Shown in pieces: positions 10,472 through 22,838 of a DNA stretch of 64,000 nucleotides. Under the pieces are notes generated by a model. The model saw nothing but the letters and a program-made list of their open reading frames with translations. It did not search any database and was not told the origin of the DNA. A program made the translations under genes and the position numbers. The stretch comes from Romanomermis culicivorax (lineage: Eukaryota > Nematoda > Enoplea > Mermithida > Mermithidae): assembly GCA_963922205.1 (NCBI GenBank), contig CAWUHX010000080.1:628814-692813 (forward strand), given 5' to 3'. Each line of letters starts with the position of its first letter. Positions within the stretch are counted from its first letter, which is position 1.

Positions 10472-11530
10472 ATGGCGTCCAATGATAGTCATAGTAGTTA
10501 TGCTTCAGTTTGTGCACTGCTTCAAGACAACCTTCGGAATGAAACTTTTTCCAGACACCAAATGATTTTGATTGCGTCGTCACCATTCTCATTCATATTG
10601 AACATTTTGTTGATTTGCTCATTGATCAGAAACAAATTGTTTTGTAAAAATTTTAAAATCTTGTTGGGAAGTTTAAGCTTCTTCGGTGCACTATTTTCAT
10701 CAGTAATATTCGTCAATGCTATTAGAATAACCATCTTGTATGTAAGCGAGCCATGCCAACTCATTGTCCATTACTCGGAATGTCTAAGAATCAATACATC
10801 CATTGGAATGCCCATGTTATGCATACCATTAACCATTCTGGCATTAGCCATCGAACGTCTATTTGCATCAGTTTCGTATAAAAATTATGCATCAATGTCA
10901 GTGATATTATTGGTTTCATTAATATCAATTGTTTCCCTGATCATATTGTCAGTTTTCCTTTGGGATTTCGGCCCTGGTTCTCAACAGTTTACGGTTTGTG
11001 ATAGCATTTTTCTAACAAACTCTGCCACGGATGTGACAACTGCTTGCATGACAGTAATTGTGGAGGGCGTATCAATGGTTATTTTCTTTTACATTCAATA
11101 TTCGGATAAGACGAAGTACGTTTTGACCATAAACCAAGCAACAAATCGTTTGAAAATTCGATACTGGTTGGCATTTAATATCCAAATAAATAATGCACTG
11201 CTACCATCGACATTTGTTTGCTTGTTATGTTTTATTATAGCGAATTCCTTCTTTCTTGCATCATCATCGTCAACTTCCGTGGGAGGAGAGAAAATGTATG
11301 CTAGTTTGACGCTTGTCTCCATCAATTTGTACACGACGTTGCATCCACTCATTTTATTCTTTCAAAATAAATGGTTTAGAGGACCATTACGAAAGAGTTT
11401 AATTTGCTTATATCACAATAGTTCGAAGGTAGCCAGTAGTCCTGTAGGGACTGAAAGTAAAATTGTCAATAAAAAGATGGCCACAGTTACACAGAAGTAT
11501 TTCAACGATTTGGAGAAGATGTGGAGTTGA
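10472..11530 (+). CDS. Sra/Srab-type seven-transmembrane chemoreceptor, copy 1
   Basis: An uninterrupted 352-codon frame encodes seven hydrophobic segments (about residues 31-53, 62-85, 107-131, 142-165, 188-212, 240-263, 274-298). TM3 ends with the IER motif of GPCRs. Two Cys in the first extracellular loop (EPCQ, SECLR) and VCDS in the second could form the usual disulfide. The segment NRLKIRYWLAFNIQ before TM6 and TLHPLILFF in TM7 resemble the RYQ-x-x-EN and LHP motifs of nematode Sra/Srab/Sre receptors, which sense environmental chemicals in sensory neurons. N-glycosylation sites include NET near residue 23. A CTTTTCTAG acceptor ends 12 bases before the ATG, suggesting a cis- or trans-spliced leader. 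The paralogue at 54062-55120 has the same length; differences concentrate in the first 92 residues. The exact subfamily is uncertain. Confidence 0.75.
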   Translation: MASNDSHSSYASVCALLQDNLRNETFSRHQMILIASSPFSFILNILLICSLIRNKLFCKNFKILLGSLSFFGALFSSVIFVNAIRITILYVSEPCQLIVHYSECLRINTSIGMPMLCIPLTILALAIERLFASVSYKNYASMSVILLVSLISIVSLIILSVFLWDFGPGSQQFTVCDSIFLTNSATDVTTACMTVIVEGVSMVIFFYIQYSDKTKYVLTINQATNRLKIRYWLAFNIQINNALLPSTFVCLLCFIIANSFFLASSSSTSVGGEKMYASLTLVSINLYTTLHPLILFFQNKWFRGPLRKSLICLYHNSSKVASSPVGTESKIVNKKMATVTQKYFNDLEKMWS

Positions 11531-12684: not shown

Positions 12685-12688
12685 CTGG

Positions 12689-13721
12689 TGTAACGTACCT
12701 GCTAAAGCAGTACTGTAAATATATATATAGCATACTGTATGTGAAAAACATTTATTAAATATTATTCATTTTCGTGTTTTATCGTCTCAAGGGTGTCTGG
12801 GATTCACACCCAAACATTCCTACAAAATTACGTGAAGTACTTCATTTTGATCCATTCACACCCACCCGGGTAGCCCAATTAAGATGCCCCAATTAATTTG
12901 CACAAATGGCAGCTGGTCCCCTAGAACCTACACTAAACTACACATTCCACAGCTACCATAATCCCTCGTAAAAATCGTAAATAACACCTGCACACAGTAA
13001 AATACGTAAAAGCCTCACCAGAAAGTAGTCTCAAGTGTAACGGTAGCGGCCGCCCCACAAAACATGTGTAGACAGAGAAACCGATACAGGAAGTATGCAC
13101 AGAAGCACAGAGGTGTGGCCAAACCCACCTTAGAAAGCAAGTGAAGCACAAAAAGCATACAGTACCAGGAAAGCATTAGAAAGGCATAACTAAGAAAGCA
13201 TAAAAAGTGTAGCAGGAAGCCATGATTGGCGGAAGAAGATGGACAGAAGCTCAACCTCCCGCGATGCCCAGGGAGTGGCCAAAAACCTCGTATAAAAGAA
13301 GAAGCAAAGCGTGATTTTTGTTATTATTGGTTAGAACTTTCAGATATCGAATTCGTCCTTTTTTTAAAACTGCGCTTGTCCCCGTTTTTATTTGCAAGTG
13401 GCCATTTCTATGAAAGCAACTTAAACTGAGGCCCCTGTTGGTTATTGTAAATCGAGACGCATTTTGTATTGTCGTATCGACGTCTCAAGCAGCCATCGAT
13501 CACTGTTATCCATATTGCTGTATTGTTGGCCCGCGCCCCACTTTGTTCCCACCGTCGTTATTGTAAATTGAGATGCGTTTTGTATTGTCGTATCGACGTC
13601 TCAAGCAGCCGTCCATCACCGTTATCCGTATTGCCGTATTGTGCGCCCGTGCCCCCCTTTGTTCCCCCCGTAGCGACCGTTGGTTACAAGTAAAGTACCT
13701 CACACAAATCTGGTCGTTACA
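12689..13721 (+). repeat. 5' LTR of full element
   Basis: 1033 bases with TG...CA ends. It contains a TATAAAAG box at 13291-13298. It is 121 bases longer than the 3' LTR, nearly all from a 116-base tandem duplication (first unit 13441-13556, second starting 13557). Confidence 0.92.
13291..13298 (+). promoter_or_regulatory. TATA box in 5' LTR
   Basis: TATAAAAG is conserved in the 3' LTR (21822-21829) and, on the minus strand, in both LTRs of the second element (56713-56720 and 60006-60013). It probably sets the start of the genomic transcript. Confidence 0.55.
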
Positions 13722-13726
13722 TATTT

Positions 13727-13744
13727 TGGTGACCACACTGATAC
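13727..13744 (+). promoter_or_regulatory. Primer binding site
   Basis: TGGTGACCACACTGATAC lies five bases after the 5' LTR and starts with the TGG complementary to a tRNA CCA end. The primer tRNA was not identified. The second element has TGGTGTCGTACC at the same place, so the primer may differ between family members. Confidence 0.65.
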
Positions 13745-13964
13745 CTTAACCACTGGAACTCCCTGCCCCCAATTAGGTGTACTCTTATCCGGGCATTTAG
13801 AAGCATTAGATAATACAGTAGTAATCATTTCCTACAGTAAGACAGTATTAGTAAAAAGCAAACTGGAAATCCCCTCCAACAAAGCATTAAGCGATACATT
13901 TAAACGAATACAGCATGAAGCAAAAATTGAAGCATTTAAGCAGAAATCCCAATGTAAACCAAGA

Positions 13965-15545
13965 ATGACCCACCAAACGCAAGATCATTTAGGAGAAATC
14001 GTTAGAGAACAGATAAACGATTTATTTTCAGAACATTTTCGTACCCTACGCACAGAATTGAATCAGAATACAGTAAACCCTACCCTAATAGATGATCTCA
14101 GAACAGCAAACATTCGTAATAACATGGCAAATAATTTTTATGCGAAACCTACAGTATTCATGGGCGGCGTGACCCAACATTTTGGTGAATGGATCAAAAG
14201 ATTAGAACAATTCATGGCACTCTAAGGCATGAAAGATACAGACGTACAGTTAAAGTTGGCATGTTTAGAAATTCATTTAGGAGGAGCCGCCTTGGCAAAA
14301 TTCAAAAGTTTAGCCAATTCCGAAAACCCTCCCCACACATATGAACAGTATAAAGTCGCATTACAGGCATTCTTCCCAAACAATAGAGACAATGAGCTAC
14401 ATCAACAATTCTTAGGCGAAAGAAAACTAAAGCATTCAGAAACAGTAACTGAATTCTTATTTGATCTAGAACATCTCGCAACCCTCGCCTACCCTAACTT
14501 TAACACAGACGCACGAGAAATGATCATAAAACCTTTCTTTGTAGAAGGCATGTAAAACGAAATCAGGGAAGCAATTAAGTATAGAAGGTTCACAACTTTA
14601 AAAGAAATGTTAGACGAAGCAGCTTACATCGAACAGCAAATTCTCAGAAATGAGCTAAAATCTAACACCCTTCCCTTTATACCCCCAAAACCCGAACCCA
14701 TCTTTTCCCTAACCAAAAATACAGACCAACAGGACCTTTTGCATCAGTTAGAACAACAAGTAAAAGATTTACAGTTGCAGATCAAACAAAAACCTCAACC
14801 CCCACAACAGAGTAGTTACAGCAATTTCAGTAACAATACTTTCAGCAGGAATAATGCTTACAGGAACAATACCACCCCTAGGCAACCCACATGCTTCCAG
14901 TGTGGACAAATTGGACATGTAGCTCGTAATTGTAAATCAGTAGGCACCCGGAAATCATGTGAAATTTGTTTTTGTAATAATCACAGTACACCCGATTGTA
15001 AAAGCCGATGCATCCACTGCTCCCAAACAGGACATAGATCTGATAACTGCCTTTCAATACCCCACTCAAATTTTCAATGTTTTCTATGCAAGCAAAGAGG
15101 TCATACAAGCAGGTACTGTCAGAATCAACAGAGTCATAATATTCAAAATTGCATTGAGTACAGGCAACCCCAACCCCTCATGGACATTGATGACCCCACA
15201 TTTTACTCAAAATTACCCGCCATAACTAATGGCCCTCAGACTACTTTAGGAACAATTATGCCCACTACCCACCGCCGTAGTGAGGAATACATCTTCGACC
15301 TGGACGTACCCGATTGGTGCGCCATGTCACCACCTCCCACGCCTGAAGCCGCGAAAATCGAAAAATCGCCGTCCACCATCCCCGTAGGCTACAAGGTTCC
15401 CCCGCAAGCAAGACACCACACTGCCCACCACCCCCAAAACCCCATTGAAAGCAGGCTGCAACTTATTGTCCCTTTTACACGGCTTGACCCCCAAACCCTA
15501 CCAATTCCACCCCCACCAAACACTGCTACCGACCCCCGCAAGTGA
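13965..15545 (+). pseudogene. gag: Gag (capsid and nucleocapsid) with two in-frame stops
   Basis: The frame from the ATG at 13965 to the TGA at 15543 covers 527 codons and is interrupted by TAA at 14223-14225 and TAA at 14553-14555, with no frame change. The start is chosen because the gag of the second element begins at the same residue context (MTHxTxDHLGEIV). The N-terminal half is capsid-like and helical. The C-terminal half carries four CCHC zinc knuckles (C-x2-C-x4-H-x4-C) at about 14893-14934, 14959-15000, 15010-15051 and 15078-15119, which bind genomic RNA. Four knuckles is more than the one or two usual in Ty3 elements. A proline-rich tail follows. No functional Gag can come from this copy. 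Confidence 0.88.
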
Positions 15546-15720
15546 GCAAGCCCAAACCCCATCCCATGACTCAACTTCTAAAATTTTACAGACCATTCAG
15601 ATTGCAAACCGGCCACCCCCTCAACCCAAAACCGAACAACATTAAAAGCGGCCACACCAAACCGGCCACAACAAAAACATACAGTGCCCCACGGCCTCCA
15701 CTAAAACATTTTATTGGCCG

Positions 15721-18348
15721 ATGTTTTGTATTTTTCTTTGTATAATAATCCCCACATCGTGTAGTGCCAAATTTCAGATGTGTGGAACTTCATTGAGCGG
15801 TCACTCAGTCAGCATACTGAAACTTGTATCATGCATGCCCCCTTCCACAGTAGACAAACCCGTACAGACATTCGGAAAAATCTATATCCCCTCCACTAAG
15901 CCTCACATTACAGATGCATACAAATGCAGTGTTTGCAAACGCAAAATTTTCACTAAAACAGGATTTTTTGGATCAAAAGGTATTGTCTTCGACCAAACTG
16001 AAATGCAAAATCTAACCCCACATGTTTGTAAGGCAATCGTTATAGACAAAGAACACAACGGTCAAAAATTATATGAAACCCAACCAGGATTTTGGTCAAC
16101 AAATAACTCCCTAAGCATAGAATACACATGGTGTTGTACAGACCACTGTACCTCGGTCACTAACCTCATCATAGAAATAGGACAAATAGCATCTTGGAAT
16201 GGAAAATCTATGACAGGTACATTAGGTGATCTGGGGTCATGCAAACCGACATCAGGTCATTGTGTAACAACTGACGGATCCATTATCTGGAATGAAACAG
16301 CATTCGAAAACTTATGCCCTTTCAAATACAAAAACACACATCCCATCAAACTAACGCAAACCCACATGATAATAGAAGAACTACAAGGTGCATTCTCCAT
16401 TAAAAACACACTCTTTTCGAACCCCAATTGCTCAGAAATCCAAGACAGCATTCTAACCGAACAAGGCATTGTTGTACAACTAGACAAAAGCACCCCACAT
16501 CGTAATGCATTTTTAACCCCAAAAACCAACAAAACTCATACTACACTCCACGATTTTGATGATTTTGAACCCATTAATGCGAAACTAAACTATCTAGCAG
16601 ACAAAATCCAGGAATTCGAAATTCAAAATTTCAAAAACCTATGGAGTGAATTATGCAGACAGGCACAGCATCACCTTGATCTCGTATGGCAAACTTTGCG
16701 CCTTGATGCAACCCTTGGGGGGCGTGCATTCCTACAGCGAACCGACATCATAGCAGAATTCACAGGAGAAGCCCTCACAGTCTGGCCCTGCAAGCAGGTA
16801 AATGCATCTAAAATCTTTTACAACCATAAAATCAACCAAACATGCTACAAACTTGTACCCATTCTCGTAGGAACTGAACTCATGTTTTCAAATCCAGGAG
16901 GCAACGATTTGACCCCTTTTGCACAAACCATTGACTGCCATCACATGCATGTAGCCCTTTACAAACAGAATAATACATGGGTCAGTGAAACAGGATCCAC
17001 GCATGTCGCAAATTTACCTTTAGAAATCGTTTGGAAGCAAAATTCCTCACTTTTCCACTTTAATACACCCGCCATTTTTCATGATCAACTTGCAACTATT
17101 TCAACCAACTTACTCTTTTTGAAACAATACATTTACAAAACTCACACACTCGAAAATGTTGTTAAAAAACTCATCAATTACACCGCCCAAATGTCCCTTA
17201 ACTCCGACACAGTTTACCATATGATCTCATTCACTGGCCAAGCAATCGGAAATACCCTCTCTGGCGCCGGTCAAGGCATAGCACATGTAATAACCGGTAC
17301 CACCCAAAGTCTCACGGACGGATTAAACAATTTACTCAAAGGAGCCCTGCAAATCATTATTAATCTAGCGGTTATTACTGTAGTAATTGCAGGTGTCTTT
17401 TATTCTTTTCTCATTCTTCGAAAGTATTTCCCCTCTCCCAAGCATCATGCCACAAATGAACATGCGTATGAAATACCATCAAACAACAGACATTTACATG
17501 AGACCATTCCCCCATCATTCGGCCATGCCCTTTTAGAATTAGCTAATCGTTGTGGGGCACAAACACAGCAGAAATACGTCCTTGTCGATATTGATACCCC
17601 CCGAACTCCTGCAATCGAACTCATTAATCAAATTCATCAATCTGCATCAAACAAGCCACCCCAAAATGTACCTGAGAAACATACCCCTCATATTCCAATC
17701 ACACTTAACGGCAGATTAATCACAAAAGGCATGATTGACACTGGTGCAGTCTACTCACTCATTGATTCACGGATCGCTCAAATTTTACAGTTAGACATGA
17801 AACCCCCGCTAGTCCAAGCAAAAGCAGCAAATAATCTCCTGATCCACTTTGTAGGAACCACTTTCGTCACAGTGACAGCCCAAACAATTCAGGAAACAAT
17901 AATGGTCCATGTCCAAAAAGATTGCACAGCAGACATCCTCCTAGGCAAAAACTTTCTCAGTCGATTTTCCGAATACACTATCAACAACCAAAAATCTCAG
18001 GTCAAATTTGGCAACGTCATACTACCCTGTGATGGCCTAGAATATAGCCCCCTTTCGACTCCTGGTGGAACCTATCTAGACAAAAAATTAGAATTACCAC
18101 CCCGTACAGTAACCAAATTTACTGTCCCCTTGCAAAAACCTTACCTACAAGTTAAACAGCTTGAATTCACCCCAAAACCCAAACAGAATCCCAAAGTCCA
18201 TTTCGCAGCTTGTGTCTCTGAAAATCAAAACAGTCGCATATGCATATCGGTCTTAAACACACAAGACACAGCCCAAACTCTTTACCCTGGAACATGCATC
18301 GGTACAGTCTCATGTTACATCCCAAAAAAAATGCTTCCGCTAAAGTAA
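15721..18348 (+). CDS. Envelope-like glycoprotein fused in frame to retroviral aspartic protease
   Basis: This uninterrupted 875-codon frame begins at an ATG 176 bases after the gag stop; an in-frame TAA at 15643-15645 bounds it. Residues 1-16 form a signal peptide (MFCIFLCIIIPTSCSA). The ectodomain to about residue 540 is Cys-rich (CSVCKRK, WCCTDHC, SGHC, ENLCPF), with several N-x-S/T sites. Residues about 543-566 are a transmembrane helix, then a basic cytosolic stretch. The second part is a Ty3-type protease with DTG at about residue 672 and a flap-end motif ADILLGKNFL. The Cys and Trp layout is reminiscent of negative-strand RNA virus glycoproteins (chuvirus- or bunyavirus-like) captured by invertebrate retroelements; the source family is unresolved. 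A pyrimidine/AG acceptor (ATTTTACAG) near 15588 could serve a spliced env mRNA. The fusion of Env to PR upstream of RT is highly unusual. Confidence 0.8.
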   Translation: MFCIFLCIIIPTSCSAKFQMCGTSLSGHSVSILKLVSCMPPSTVDKPVQTFGKIYIPSTKPHITDAYKCSVCKRKIFTKTGFFGSKGIVFDQTEMQNLTPHVCKAIVIDKEHNGQKLYETQPGFWSTNNSLSIEYTWCCTDHCTSVTNLIIEIGQIASWNGKSMTGTLGDLGSCKPTSGHCVTTDGSIIWNETAFENLCPFKYKNTHPIKLTQTHMIIEELQGAFSIKNTLFSNPNCSEIQDSILTEQGIVVQLDKSTPHRNAFLTPKTNKTHTTLHDFDDFEPINAKLNYLADKIQEFEIQNFKNLWSELCRQAQHHLDLVWQTLRLDATLGGRAFLQRTDIIAEFTGEALTVWPCKQVNASKIFYNHKINQTCYKLVPILVGTELMFSNPGGNDLTPFAQTIDCHHMHVALYKQNNTWVSETGSTHVANLPLEIVWKQNSSLFHFNTPAIFHDQLATISTNLLFLKQYIYKTHTLENVVKKLINYTAQMSLNSDTVYHMISFTGQAIGNTLSGAGQGIAHVITGTTQSLTDGLNNLLKGALQIIINLAVITVVIAGVFYSFLILRKYFPSPKHHATNEHAYEIPSNNRHLHETIPPSFGHALLELANRCGAQTQQKYVLVDIDTPRTPAIELINQIHQSASNKPPQNVPEKHTPHIPITLNGRLITKGMIDTGAVYSLIDSRIAQILQLDMKPPLVQAKAANNLLIHFVGTTFVTVTAQTIQETIMVHVQKDCTADILLGKNFLSRFSEYTINNQKSQVKFGNVILPCDGLEYSPLSTPGGTYLDKKLELPPRTVTKFTVPLQKPYLQVKQLEFTPKPKQNPKVHFAACVSENQNSRICISVLNTQDTAQTLYPGTCIGTVSCYIPKKMLPLK
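18324..18330 (+). promoter_or_regulatory. Putative -1 ribosomal frameshift site between protease and RT
   Basis: In the env-protease reading frame the run reads A AAA AAA, a classic slippery heptamer, 15 bases before that frame's TAA (18346-18348). RT lies in the -1 frame and is open through this point, so one backward slip would connect them. Downstream RNA structure was not assessed. Confidence 0.6.
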
Positions 18349-21229
18349 CCCCCTCCATGAAAAACCAGCCCAACCATTTTGATACATTCACATGGTTAAA
18401 AGAAAATGTCAATTTAACCTCCAGTGACCTCACAGAAACCGAGAAAATGCAACTCCTACGCACCCTATCGAAGTATCCTACATTATATGCTAAATCCAAA
18501 ATGGACGTAGGTAGAACCACCCTTGTTTCACATACAATTGACATCAATGGCTCCCAACCTGTACGCAGGCACCTTTATTGGACTTCCCCAAAAGAAAAGC
18601 AAATCATACAAGCAGAAGTTGAGCAACTCGCAGCAGCAGGTGTAATAAGCCAAAGCAATTCTCCATGGTGTACCAACACAGTTTTAGTCCCCAAAAAAGA
18701 TGGAGGGCATCGTTTATGCATTGATTTTAGAGGCCTCAATAGAGTAACCAAAAAAGATACCTACCCCTTGCCCTGTATAGACGAAATTCTAGACACCCTA
18801 CATGGAATGAAATATTTTAGGTCCCTCGACCAATCCAATGCATATTATTCCATTCCCATAGCACAAGCAGACAGAGAAAAAACGGCCTCTAATTGCTCAG
18901 CCGACCAGTATCAATTCAACTACCTCCCTTTCTGTCACACCAACGCCCCAGCCACATTCCAAAGGTTAATGGATGTTATTCTTTCGGGTTTGCAATGGAA
19001 CACATACCTTGTATATCTGGACGATGTTTTAGTCTTCACAGATTCCCATGCCCAAATGCTGGAACATTTAGACGCTATTCTTGCCCGACTCTCAAAAGCA
19101 GGCCTTAAACTAAACATACAAAAATGCAAATTCTGCCAGCCCCAAGTCCAATACTTAGGCCACGTCATTTCTCAGCAAGGCATTTCACCAGACCCTAATA
19201 AGGTACAGTCCATTTATGACATCCCCACCCCCAAAAGCTCCAAAGAAGTCAAAACATTCCTTGGTCTACCCTGGTATTATCGTAGATTCATCACCAATTG
19301 CTCTCAAGTTTCTAGCCCACTCACATCGCTACTCAAAAAGAATTCGGAATTTTCCTGGGGCCCTGAACAGCAAAATGCATTCACTAAACTCAAAGAGCTC
19401 CTAATTCATGCCCCAATACTGCAGCACCCCGATTTCACAAAACCTTTTATTCTGCAAACTGACGCCTCAAAACTCGGAATCGGCGCCATTCTCAGCCAGT
19501 TAGACAGTAAAGGTCAGGATCGCCCCATTGCTTTTGGGAGCCGCACATTGAAACCCGCAGAACGCAACTACCCAATAACTGAATTGGAAACCCTAGCAGT
19601 AGTTGAGTTTGTCAAGTATTTCAGCCCCTACCTTTTTCAACAACATGTTATCGTACACACTGACCATACAGCAGTTCAGGCAGTCTTACAAAAGGAAAAC
19701 CCATCCCCTCGCATTGCCCGTTGGGGATTAGCCCTCTTTGGTATTCAGTTAGACATTTGACCTAAGAAAGGCACTGCTAACCGCAACGCAGATGCAGTCT
19801 CTCGATTCCCCTCACAGACAGCAAAGCAATCCTTTGATATTGAGCAATTAGAAACCCCCCCCCCCCCGAAATATCAACAATCAATTCTGTTCTTGAGGCC
19901 GAAGCAACTGAACAAGAAGAGCAACAGAAAAATTTCGCCGAACTCCAACACACTGATCCAATTGTCAGAAGTATTTTAGCAAAAATCGCCCAGAAACATC
20001 TGCTTACTATGATCAAATTCGCAGTGCATCAAAACATCCTCTTCTGTATAGTCGACAAACAGGCAAAAGTATACATTCCAAAGTCACAAGTCCAGCATCT
20101 CATCGCCTCACATCATGACAGCCAATTCACAGGTCATTTTGCAGCCCGAAAAACTTTACACTTGCTCAGACAAAAATATTTTTGGCCCCAAATGAGCCGT
20201 GATATCAAACGCTAATGCAAAACTTGCCACCCCTGCCAGACACAGAAAGCTCTCTGGCACAAAGTGCATGCAAATTTGGTACCGATTCAGCCGACTGGCC
20301 CATTTGATAGAGTCGGTGTTGATTGCATGGGGCCGTTACCCCTCACTGAAGATGGCAACCGATTCATTGTCGTTTTCATCGACTATTTCACAAAGTATGT
20401 AGAGGCATTCCCGACCCCTGATATCACTGCAGCTACTATTGCCAAGCTATTCGTAACCAAAATTGTTTGCCGTCATGGGTCCCCAAAAATCATCCATTGT
20501 GATCGTGGCTCCGATTTTGTATCTGATCTCTTCTCACGGATCACCAGTTTATGCAATACTCAGAAAATTCATACCATCCCATACCATCCCATTGCCAATG
20601 GGGAAGTTGAGCATTGCAACCAGACCCTAGCCACCCATATCGGCATGTACATCAATTCAAATCACACTGATTGGGATACTTATCTCCCCTATGCCGTTTT
20701 TTTGATCAATATTCACAAAAATAATAGTACCTCGTATCCCCCATTCGAATTGCTCCACGGTAGACAGGCTGATCTTCCATCAGACGCAGCCTTAAATTTT
20801 TTCCCCACGTCCTACATGGTTGATTTAGACGATTATGCCCTTCGTGTAAAATCACATTTTACAGAAGCACTCTCAACCGTGCAGAAAAGTTTACAAAAAG
20901 CCCAGGACCACTATACCCGTCAGTATAACAAGCATGCTCAGAACATACATTACAAGGCAGGTGATCTTATTCTTTACAAAAATCATTTGTGTAAACAAGG
21001 GCTGACTCCCAAATTCCTCCCTCGCCAAAACGGGCCCTATACAGTTACAAATTTCATGTACCCCAACGTTACACTTAAACACCCCCATAAGAATATCACA
21101 TTTACGGTGCATGTAAACGAGACAACCCCTTTCTACCCTCGGAAAGCAACTATCGAATCTACCCCCACACCTCCTCACCCTCCAAAGCCTCGAACAAGGA
21201 CGTTCAACTCGGGAAGGAGGGAAATGTAA
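18331..21229 (+). pseudogene. pol: Pol: reverse transcriptase, RNase H, integrase (broken)
   Basis: RT is intact to about 19300, with the catalytic YLDDVLVF motif at about 19010-19033. RNase H follows (LQTDASKLGIGAIL; TELETLAVVEF). A TGA at 19758-19760 interrupts the RNase H end. A run of 13 C (19855-19867) shifts the frame by one base. Integrase then continues with the His-His zinc-finger half, a TAA at 20213-20215 immediately before the CKTCHPC half, and the DDE core (VDCMGPLP; IHCDRGSDF; GEVEHCNQ). It ends with GDLILY and GPYTVTNF in the C-terminal domain. The poly-C shift could be a sequencing error; the two stops look real. The reading frame closes at 21227-21229, inside the 3' LTR. Confidence 0.92.
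21211..21224 (+). promoter_or_regulatory. Polypurine tract
   Basis: GGGAAGGAGGGAAA abuts the 3' LTR and would prime plus-strand DNA synthesis. The same tract precedes the 3' LTR of the minus-strand element. Confidence 0.85.
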
Positions 21230-22136
21230 CGTACCTGCTGAAGCAGTACTGTAAATATATATACAGCATACTGTATGAGATAAACATTTATTAAATATTA
21301 TTCATTTTCGTATTTTATCGTCTCATAGGTGTCTGGGATTCACACCCAAACATTCCTCTAAAAATACGTGAAGTACTTTATTTTGATCTGTTCACACCCT
21401 GGTAGCCAAATTAAGATGCCCCAATTAATTTGCACAAACGACAGCTGGTCCCCTAGAACCTACACTAAACTACACATTCCACAGCTACCATAATACCCCG
21501 TAAAAATCGTAAACAACACCTGCACACAGTAAAATACGTAAAAGCCCCGCCAGACAGTAGTCTCAAGTGTAACGGTAGTGGCGCCCCACAAAACATGTGT
21601 AGACAGAGAAACTGATACAGGAAGCATGCACAGAAGCACAGAGGTGTGGCCAAACCCACCGTAGAAAGCAAGCGAAGCACGAAAAGCATACAGTACCAGG
21701 GAAGCATTAGAAAGGTGTAACTAAGAAAGCATAAAAAGCGTAGCAGGAAGCGAGGATTGGCAGAAGAAAATGGACAGAAGCTCGACCTCCGGCGACGCCC
21801 AGGGAGTGGCCAAAAACGTCGTATAAAAGAAGAAGCAACGCGTGATTTTTGTTATTATTGGTTTGAATTTTCGGATATCGAATTCGTCGTTTTTTTAAAA
21901 CTGCGCTCGTCCTCGTTTTTATTTGCAAGCGGCCATTTGTATGAAAGCAACTTAAACCGAGGCCCCCGTTTGTTATTGTAAATCGAGACACGTTTTGTAT
22001 TGTCATATCGACGTCTCAAGCAGCCATCGATCACCGTTATCCGTATTGCCATATTGTACGACCGCGCCCTCCTTTGTTCCCGCCGTAGCGAATGTTGGTT
22101 ACAAGTAAAGTACCTCACACAAATCTGGTCGTTACA
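21225..22136 (+). repeat. 3' LTR of full element
   Basis: 912 bases, TG...CA ends, matching the 5' LTR except for scattered differences and the missing 116-base duplication. TATAAAAG at 21822-21829. Confidence 0.92.
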
Positions 22137-22838
22137 CTGGATGATATGGGAGGTGAAGAAATTATGCCCGAAGCTTTAACATGTAAATTTCTACTCCATG
22201 TAGAGAGTACGCCCGAATCTAATAGTTTTACTTGTTTTTTTCAGTGAGTAAACTCATTAGATGGTTATATCTTATGCGCTGACCTTAAAATCTATTCTCT
22301 CTCATATTGCTTTTTATGTATCAACATCGAACAGCTGTTAGGTTTAATGTCATGGAATTTCCTAATGTGACCAATGCAGAAACTAAGGACTATACGGTAG
22401 CACCATCAATGCCTTTCAACTCGAGTCTTGAAGATAACAAATGCACATATGTTCAAATTTTTATCAAAAATCTTGAAAATCTTTACAGACAAAAAAATTT
22501 GATGCACACGTTTCTGCAAAAAAAATATAAGTTCAATGACAATTATTTTACCACAATTATAAATTACCCTTGTATGTCTTCAAATCTCAAATATGAAACA
22601 CTATTTTCACACATTCCATGACCTGCATCTGTAGAGGGATAAAATTATTAACTTCCATAAATTCACGAAATACAACTAGAACAATATTTATTCCCTTCGA
22701 TATATTAGTGAAATACATCAGGTAATTTCTCTCCTGCATGCATAGAATTTGTTTGTGAATATATGGCAGCAATAACATACTATCAACACAATCGACAATC
22801 TGTATTCATATGATATTAATTTTAAAATATTCCTTAAA

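Follow-up and report, generated by a model that had tools for sequence, protein, structure and literature searches.

A 64,000-nt stretch of the Romanomermis culicivorax assembly GCA_963922205.1 (contig CAWUHX010000080.1, positions 628,814–692,813, forward strand; hereafter, the window) contains at 12689–22136 a decayed element of Ty3 type, whose PF24664 glycoprotein continues in frame into the protease (PR). The element belongs to a diversified, recently active Ty3-type (Metaviridae) lineage that carries a chuvirus-type envelope glycoprotein (Env) between Gag and PR. In intact copies of the family represented in the window (family A), gag, env, PR, reverse transcriptase (RT), ribonuclease H (RNase H, RH) and integrase (IN) follow one another in a single open frame. 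A first-pass annotation of the window had read the order as gag, a glycoprotein with signal peptide and transmembrane segment (TM), an in-frame DTG protease, RT, RNase H and IN, and Pfam matches, open reading frames (ORFs) and hydropathy agree with it. The boundaries of the element were also placed correctly, as judged by its long terminal repeats (LTRs), the target-site duplication (TSD) CTGG and the polypurine tract (Table 1). The proposed Env-PR polyprotein holds as an in-frame fusion, but not in its limits, the full unit in intact copies being Gag-Env-PR-RT-IN.

The window's own 359-Mb assembly was searched with the Env-PR segment. From 5255 first-look candidates, at least 52 matches were scored, the window included (at least 51 besides it), and this lower bound is spread over many contigs. 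The open frame reaches at least 2409 amino acids in 33 of the 52 scored matches and at least 2000 in 43; the former threshold is the sum of 587 and 1822 and covers the whole Gag-Env-PR-RT-RNaseH-IN order in intact copies. Thirty loci were fetched, of which the 29 besides the window comprise 19 of subfamily A1 and 10 of subfamily A2. In 20 of these 29 the Env frame is free of stops across Env and 1.5 kb of flank on each side, and the remaining nine have stops on one side, on both sides or internally. Both 5' and 3' pieces were obtained for eight copies. In every one of them Gag (574–587 residues from its first Met) continues into Env without a stop, and the frame closes 34 nt before the 3' LTR, 1822 codons past Env codon 1. 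An env after IN, raised in the annotation as the contrary outcome, is found in none of the eight, the region past IN having been read in family A only. Family A has been recently active: the paired LTRs are identical in four of the eight copies (two over partial LTRs) and diverge by 0.001, 0.006, 0.014 and 0.017 in the others, and 4-bp TSDs are seen in all six readable pairs.

Purifying selection on family A Env is about as strong as that on PR. For a set of 29 copies, with any copy containing a stop in a segment dropped from that segment, Env codons 1–560 have a synonymous divergence (dS) of about 0.10 and a nonsynonymous divergence (dN) of 0.005–0.007, giving dN/dS of 0.05–0.06. The ratio is 0.06–0.08 for the Env tail plus PR and 0.03 for the link between PR and RT. 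Comparison of the decayed window copy with the others gives 0.15, 0.06 and 0.23 for the same three segments. All 12 Env rows compared, among them the one from a BEL element (P0123, below), share fourteen invariant cysteines, and a GFFG-like stretch is conserved in the ectodomain. The window Env matches no glycoprotein family in Pfam besides PF24664 at E ≤ 1. Hydropathy analysis of the window Env-PR frame finds a single strong TM, starting at residue 542. The signal stretch is short: with a 19-residue hydropathy window and a cut of 1.6 it is flagged in copy L002 (1.61), P0001 and P0122 and is not flagged in the window copy or in L003, and a 15-residue window gives values of 2.05–3.09 in seven rows from other copies and families.

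Env lies before PR in six families of this genome beyond family A. A PF24664 search of the window's assembly returned 68 scored matches, all above the cut-off, and the same search of 14 control genomes returned none. The loci fetched represent families B (L047), C (L049, L050, L052, L055, L056), D (L051), D2 (L065), E (L054) and F (L064). Their Env proteins share 54–57% (B, C), 41–43% (D) and 35–38% (E) identity with that of family A, and 64% (D2) and 47% (F) with that of family D. The PF24664 profile is above its cut-off in all seven families as well as in P0001 and P0122, and PR is situated downstream of the Env TM in all seven (A–F and D2). Env and PR occupy one frame in C, D, D2, E and F; family B is decayed, with TM and PR together in a frame distinct from that of the ectodomain. 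Matches to the protease profile PF13975 exceed its cut-off in families A, C, D2 and F. RT follows PR in six of the seven families, the family F piece having been fetched short of RT. The 5-kb piece fetched for C and for D2 is a single open frame from Gag through RT, and one stop lies between gag and Env in the copy of family E that was read. Env queries taken from E and D gave 76 and 79 matches, which fall in more divergent groups; open frames there reach 2703 amino acids, and nine copies, of family F, have exactly 3100. A frame of 24354 amino acids reported at G000:C371:149160-150914 is not credible and is perhaps due to a stretch of N.

In family F about 420 residues separate the Env TM from the main PR. 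An apparent second protease-like stretch (DTGC...) was seen between the two (L064:3561-5001; PF13975 at 15 bits, under the cut-off). In the same locus a 263-residue frame (968-1759) overlaps the gag/env linker in another frame, which might reflect an overlapping gene or an effect of composition. The protease active site reads DCG, and not DTG or DSG, in families B (L047) and C (L055, at about 3962), an unusual active-site motif for a retroviral-type protease.

Beyond the window's own assembly, a query of 5.8 billion proteins with Env-PR found one relative, P0001, with 34% identity over Env and with Gag and Env in a single frame of 1186 residues. When the Env region of P0001 served as query, 8000 candidates were scored and two more sequences were obtained. 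P0122, on a public contig from this or another species, has Gag, Env, PR and the start of RT in a single 1500-residue frame, with its Retrotrans_gag and PR matches both below cut-off. P0123 has the order integrase-DUF5641-Env, a BEL arrangement. The same type of Env therefore occurs at both positions, in different kinds of element. Viral contigs scanned with three queries (RT, Env-PR frame, Env alignment) yielded no relatives, nor did genome contigs scanned with the last of these, and a PDB sequence search with Env-PR gave no match.

In an RT tree of 66 rows, families A–E and five public sequences (P0002, P0003, P0004, P0005 and P0064) form one clade with a Shimodaira–Hasegawa-like approximate likelihood ratio (SH-aLRT) support of 96. 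The same clade is recovered at 99/96 in a careful tree of 43 rows to which D2 was added. The groups (E, P0004), (D, D2) and (A,(B,C)) are found within it, D being loosely placed relative to four other rows. The Env tree likewise has (A,(B,C)), followed by D with P0001, and places E apart. The two trees concur in pairing B with C, joining A to that pair and setting D and E farther out, so Env and pol appear to have remained together. Among solved structures the RT of Ty3 is nearest (281 bits), the next kind scoring 170 bits. Two of the checks suggested with the first-pass annotation were made and neither refuted it, the order recurring in family A copies, the six further families and P0122, and RT phylogeny placing A–E with five public RTs in one supported clade. 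Its suggestion of a possibly undescribed lineage rests on the RT trees, which hold no identified named Ty3 reference lineage, and on searches of the literature.

We put at roughly three in four the probability that translation of the unspliced RNA yields a single Gag-Env-Pro-Pol polyprotein, because the frame is single and open and Env has no fixed start codon. An ATG is present at the Env signal peptide in subfamily A1 and lacking in A2 (10 of 29 copies). The nearest upstream Met is 2 residues from the signal peptide in A1, 134 in A2 (L003), 41 in C, 78 in D, 42 in D2, 6 in E and 79 in F, and about 310 residues away in P0001 and P0122. The Env signal peptide would then act internally, as internal signals do in alphavirus and flavivirus polyproteins. 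Gag would remain cytosolic, the Env ectodomain would enter the lumen of the endoplasmic reticulum, and the TM would bring PR-RT-RH-IN back to the cytosol, with cleavage by signal peptidase on the lumenal side and by PR on the cytosolic side. The earlier argument that PR sits on the cytosolic side of the TM survives in this scheme and needs to be extended to Gag-Env-PR-RT-IN. Env would in this way also anchor both Gag and Pol to the budding membrane. Foamy viruses have separate genes, with env after pol. A likeness to the present proposal is that their Env leader peptide is involved in Gag envelopment and release (PMC7828637).

An intron-like stretch at the Gag/Env boundary could supply additional Gag. 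Donor and acceptor pairs enclosing 40–150 nt were scored in 13 families (A, B, C, D, D2, E and F, with D3, D4, D5, D6, G and H through linkers L066-L071). The gag/env linker holds the top short-intron pair of the whole piece in A, B, C and D2, and the fifth in D. Pair scores of at least 7.5 are found in seven of the 13 families (A, B, C, D, D2, D3, H), all with a phase 1 donor, a phase 0 acceptor and a length of 50–107 nt that is 2 mod 3. Among 500 synonymous reshuffles per family, the observed score was equalled or exceeded in 0 (A), 25 (B), 11 (C), 43 (D), 47 (D2), 67 (D3) and 40 (H); the corresponding counts for the low-scoring families are 396 (E), 497 (F), 480 (D4), 46 (D5), 192 (D6) and 72 (G). 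The combined p is 2.6e-4 if the families are independent, and they share ancestry. The 1-to-0 phase pattern occurs in nine of 13 families, with low scores in F and G, where the null share is 0.20, and one of 21 control windows elsewhere was extreme (6/200). The family A linker donor is GTAAGC in the 29 other loci versus GTGAGC in the window copy. Removal of the stretch is predicted to shift the frame and lead to a stop after 4–39 codons (six loci, five families). Splicing would thereby generate a Gag-only mRNA and an excess of Gag. That a facultative intron of 50–107 nt does this in part of the lineage is, in our estimation, evenly poised.

Splicing of the more classical kind would provide a different account, in which a donor in the 5' leader is joined to the acceptor in the gag/env linker, yielding an Env(-Pol) mRNA that has a start of its own, with Gag made from unspliced RNA. 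All 30 family A loci have the acceptor TTTTACAG, and in the two that were scored it lies 141 nt ahead of the Env signal core. A donor-like ACAGTAAGA precedes the gag ATG in both of the copies scanned, and A1, C and D2 have an ATG downstream of the acceptor. No ATG, however, lies between acceptor and signal peptide in A2, B or D, or just ahead of the signal peptide in P0001 and P0122, and an Env spliced in this way would still have PR-RT-IN attached. We regard this account as somewhat unlikely.

It is improbable that Env is instead an alternative intron whose removal, from a donor at the end of gag to a site before PR, yields Gag-Pro-Pol. The linker donor and TTATTGCAG within the TM are both phase 1 in family A and would join in frame; phase 1 is likewise shared in family C by a linker donor and acceptors shortly upstream of the TM. 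The join falls within the TM in A and retains the TM in C, however, and D and E have no matching pair at comparable places; with no splice-site pair recurring across families, this candidate was rejected. Small weight is also given to an Env that has lost its role in entry and is retained solely as an intracellular membrane anchor for Gag and Pol, as its position between the two in the natural frame might suggest, for the ectodomain, with its invariant cysteines and GFFG-like stretch, is under strong purifying selection beyond what an anchor needs. A one-off decaying recombinant or assembly join, to which the broken state of the window copy might point and which the annotation itself had raised, is ruled out by the further scored matches, the young LTRs with differing TSDs, the several families and the purifying selection.

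Returning to the single Gag-Env-Pro-Pol polyprotein, a number of points weigh against it or against the lineage as delimited here. We infer both translation and membrane topology from sequence. A Met is close to the signal peptide in A1 and in family E (6 residues), and P0001 has one within the hydrophobic stretch. The chuvirus-type class III fold attributed to Env rests on the Pfam profile. PR matches in D, E and P0122 are under the Pfam cut-off, PR of family B was assigned by eye from its motif, and sequence beyond integrase was read for family A only. P0001 stops after the Env tail, with no pol in the sequence seen. The dN/dS set consists of the 29 best protein matches and is biased to intact copies. 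As to the linker intron, the splice weights were nematode-like and not fitted to this genome, and the pair is absent or weak in six of 13 families (E, F, D4, D5, D6, G). The short RT piece of P0122 (22% of columns) falls outside the A–E clade with weak support (84/50), and in the Env tree E, P0122 and P0123, the last of BEL type, stand apart from all other rows (91/97, unstarred); in view of this discord, Env may have moved more than once.

A wider proposal, to which we assign even odds, is that the lineage gave up separate expression of Env altogether, so that Gag, a class III fusogen and all the enzymes would form one membrane-spanning polyprotein. The Env signal and TM would replace a matrix domain and load the enzymes into particles, and a splice-induced frameshift at the Gag/Env joint would supplement free Gag. 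The arrangement would be old, shared by many families and perhaps present in several hosts.

With Metaviridae (Ty3/Gypsy, including Errantivirus and Cer1) the lineage has in common LTRs with TSDs and a polypurine tract, the PR-RT-RNaseH-IN order (family A) and a Ty3-type RT; it differs in having Env between Gag and PR. According to the International Committee on Taxonomy of Viruses, Env in Metaviridae, where present, is downstream of integrase, whereas here Env precedes PR and all eight family A copies close their frame 34 nt short of the 3' LTR. Errantivirus, with an env that is likely baculovirus-derived and placed after pol, is not matched by a PF24664 Env upstream of PR. Cer1 has gag-pol without an intervening stop, as in the present lineage (PMC10309623). 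Env-like proteins of Roo, Tas and Cer-7 are described downstream of the polyprotein (PMC7642597). Anakin resembles the present elements as an LTR element that captured a chuvirus-type glycoprotein, but belongs to BEL/Pao (PMC7642597); env after IN, the BEL order, is seen in P0123 and not in family A. Atlas virus, a hookworm belpaovirus, is likewise a nematode element with one intact polyprotein that includes Env, but has the order Gag-Pol-Env, a BEL RT and a phlebovirus-type class II Env (PMC9094657). Env inside a single polyprotein thus has a precedent, and its middle position appears to be new. BARE1 is also a single-frame element, in which a short frame-shifting intron yields a Gag-only mRNA, but it is of the Copia superfamily in barley, and its intron was shown by RNA whereas ours is predicted (PMC3735527). 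A survey of Jingchuvirales glycoproteins in arthropod genomes reports adjoining Gypsy fragments and no clear Gypsy capture (PMC10084718), so that the present families are of interest as a capture of this glycoprotein by Ty3-type elements. No description of a gag-env-pro-pol order, or use of the phrase 'gag-env-pol', was found in the open-access literature; few subscription papers or preprints were covered, and an earlier description is possible. The gag-pro-pol-env order has been treated as fixed for envelope-bearing reverse-transcribing elements. This lineage shows that Env can sit inside the replication polyprotein, and it offers a natural experiment for asking how Gag, Env and Pol come to share a membrane and what sets their ratio.

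Features of the window element are listed in Table 1. The copy is old, as its LTR pair differs by a Kimura two-parameter distance of 0.074, and it is broken, with in-frame stops in gag and a change of frame at each of three junctions (gag/env, PR/RT and RNase H/IN). Since intact copies have one long frame, its Env-PR ORF is a remnant of a longer polyprotein. The integrase frame ends at the 3' LTR and therefore leaves no space for a downstream env. The TGG-starting stretch after the 5' LTR, a putative site for tRNA priming, is exact across six loci.

Table 1. Features of the element in the window (window coordinates)
Feature	Position	Strand	Details	Basis
TSD CTGG, left copy	12685..12688	+	right copy 22137-22140	sequence
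5' LTR	12689..13721	+	1033 nt; TGTAACG...CGTTACA; includes 116-nt tandem duplication	
Putative primer-binding site	13727..13744	+	TGG...; 5 nt past LTR	sequence
gag frame	13965..15545	+	in-frame stops in window copy; zinc knuckles ~14889-15119	ORFs, Pfam
Intron-like stretch, gag/env linker	15542..15591	+	50 nt; GTGAGC...TTTTACAG	sequence, splice scoring
Signal-peptide-like hydrophobic Env start	15721..15768	+		sequence, hydropathy
Env-protease open frame	15721..18348	+	875 aa	ORF call
PF24664 Monjiviricetes_fusion (chuvirus-type fusion glycoprotein)	16525..17409	+	E 5.9e-18	Pfam
Env transmembrane segment	17344..17409	+		hydropathy
Aspartic protease, PF13975 gag-asp_proteas	17695..17964	+	DTG; E 8.7e-08; same frame as Env	Pfam
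RT and RNase H frame	18240..19760	+	RVT_1 18687-19169; RNase H 19356-19736	ORF, Pfam
Integrase frame	20264..21229	+	rve 20309-20590; runs to 3' LTR	ORF, Pfam
Polypurine tract	21211..21224	+	GGGAAGGAGGGAAA; directly before 3' LTR	sequence
3' LTR	21225..22136	+	912 nt	sequence

The greater length of the 5' LTR (1033 nt, against 912 nt for the 3' LTR) is due to a 116-nt tandem duplication near its 3' end (13432-13721), which the 3' LTR of the same copy lacks. A Srab-type chemoreceptor-like frame (PF10292), of a kind suggestive of a nematode host, adjoins the element at 10472-11530.

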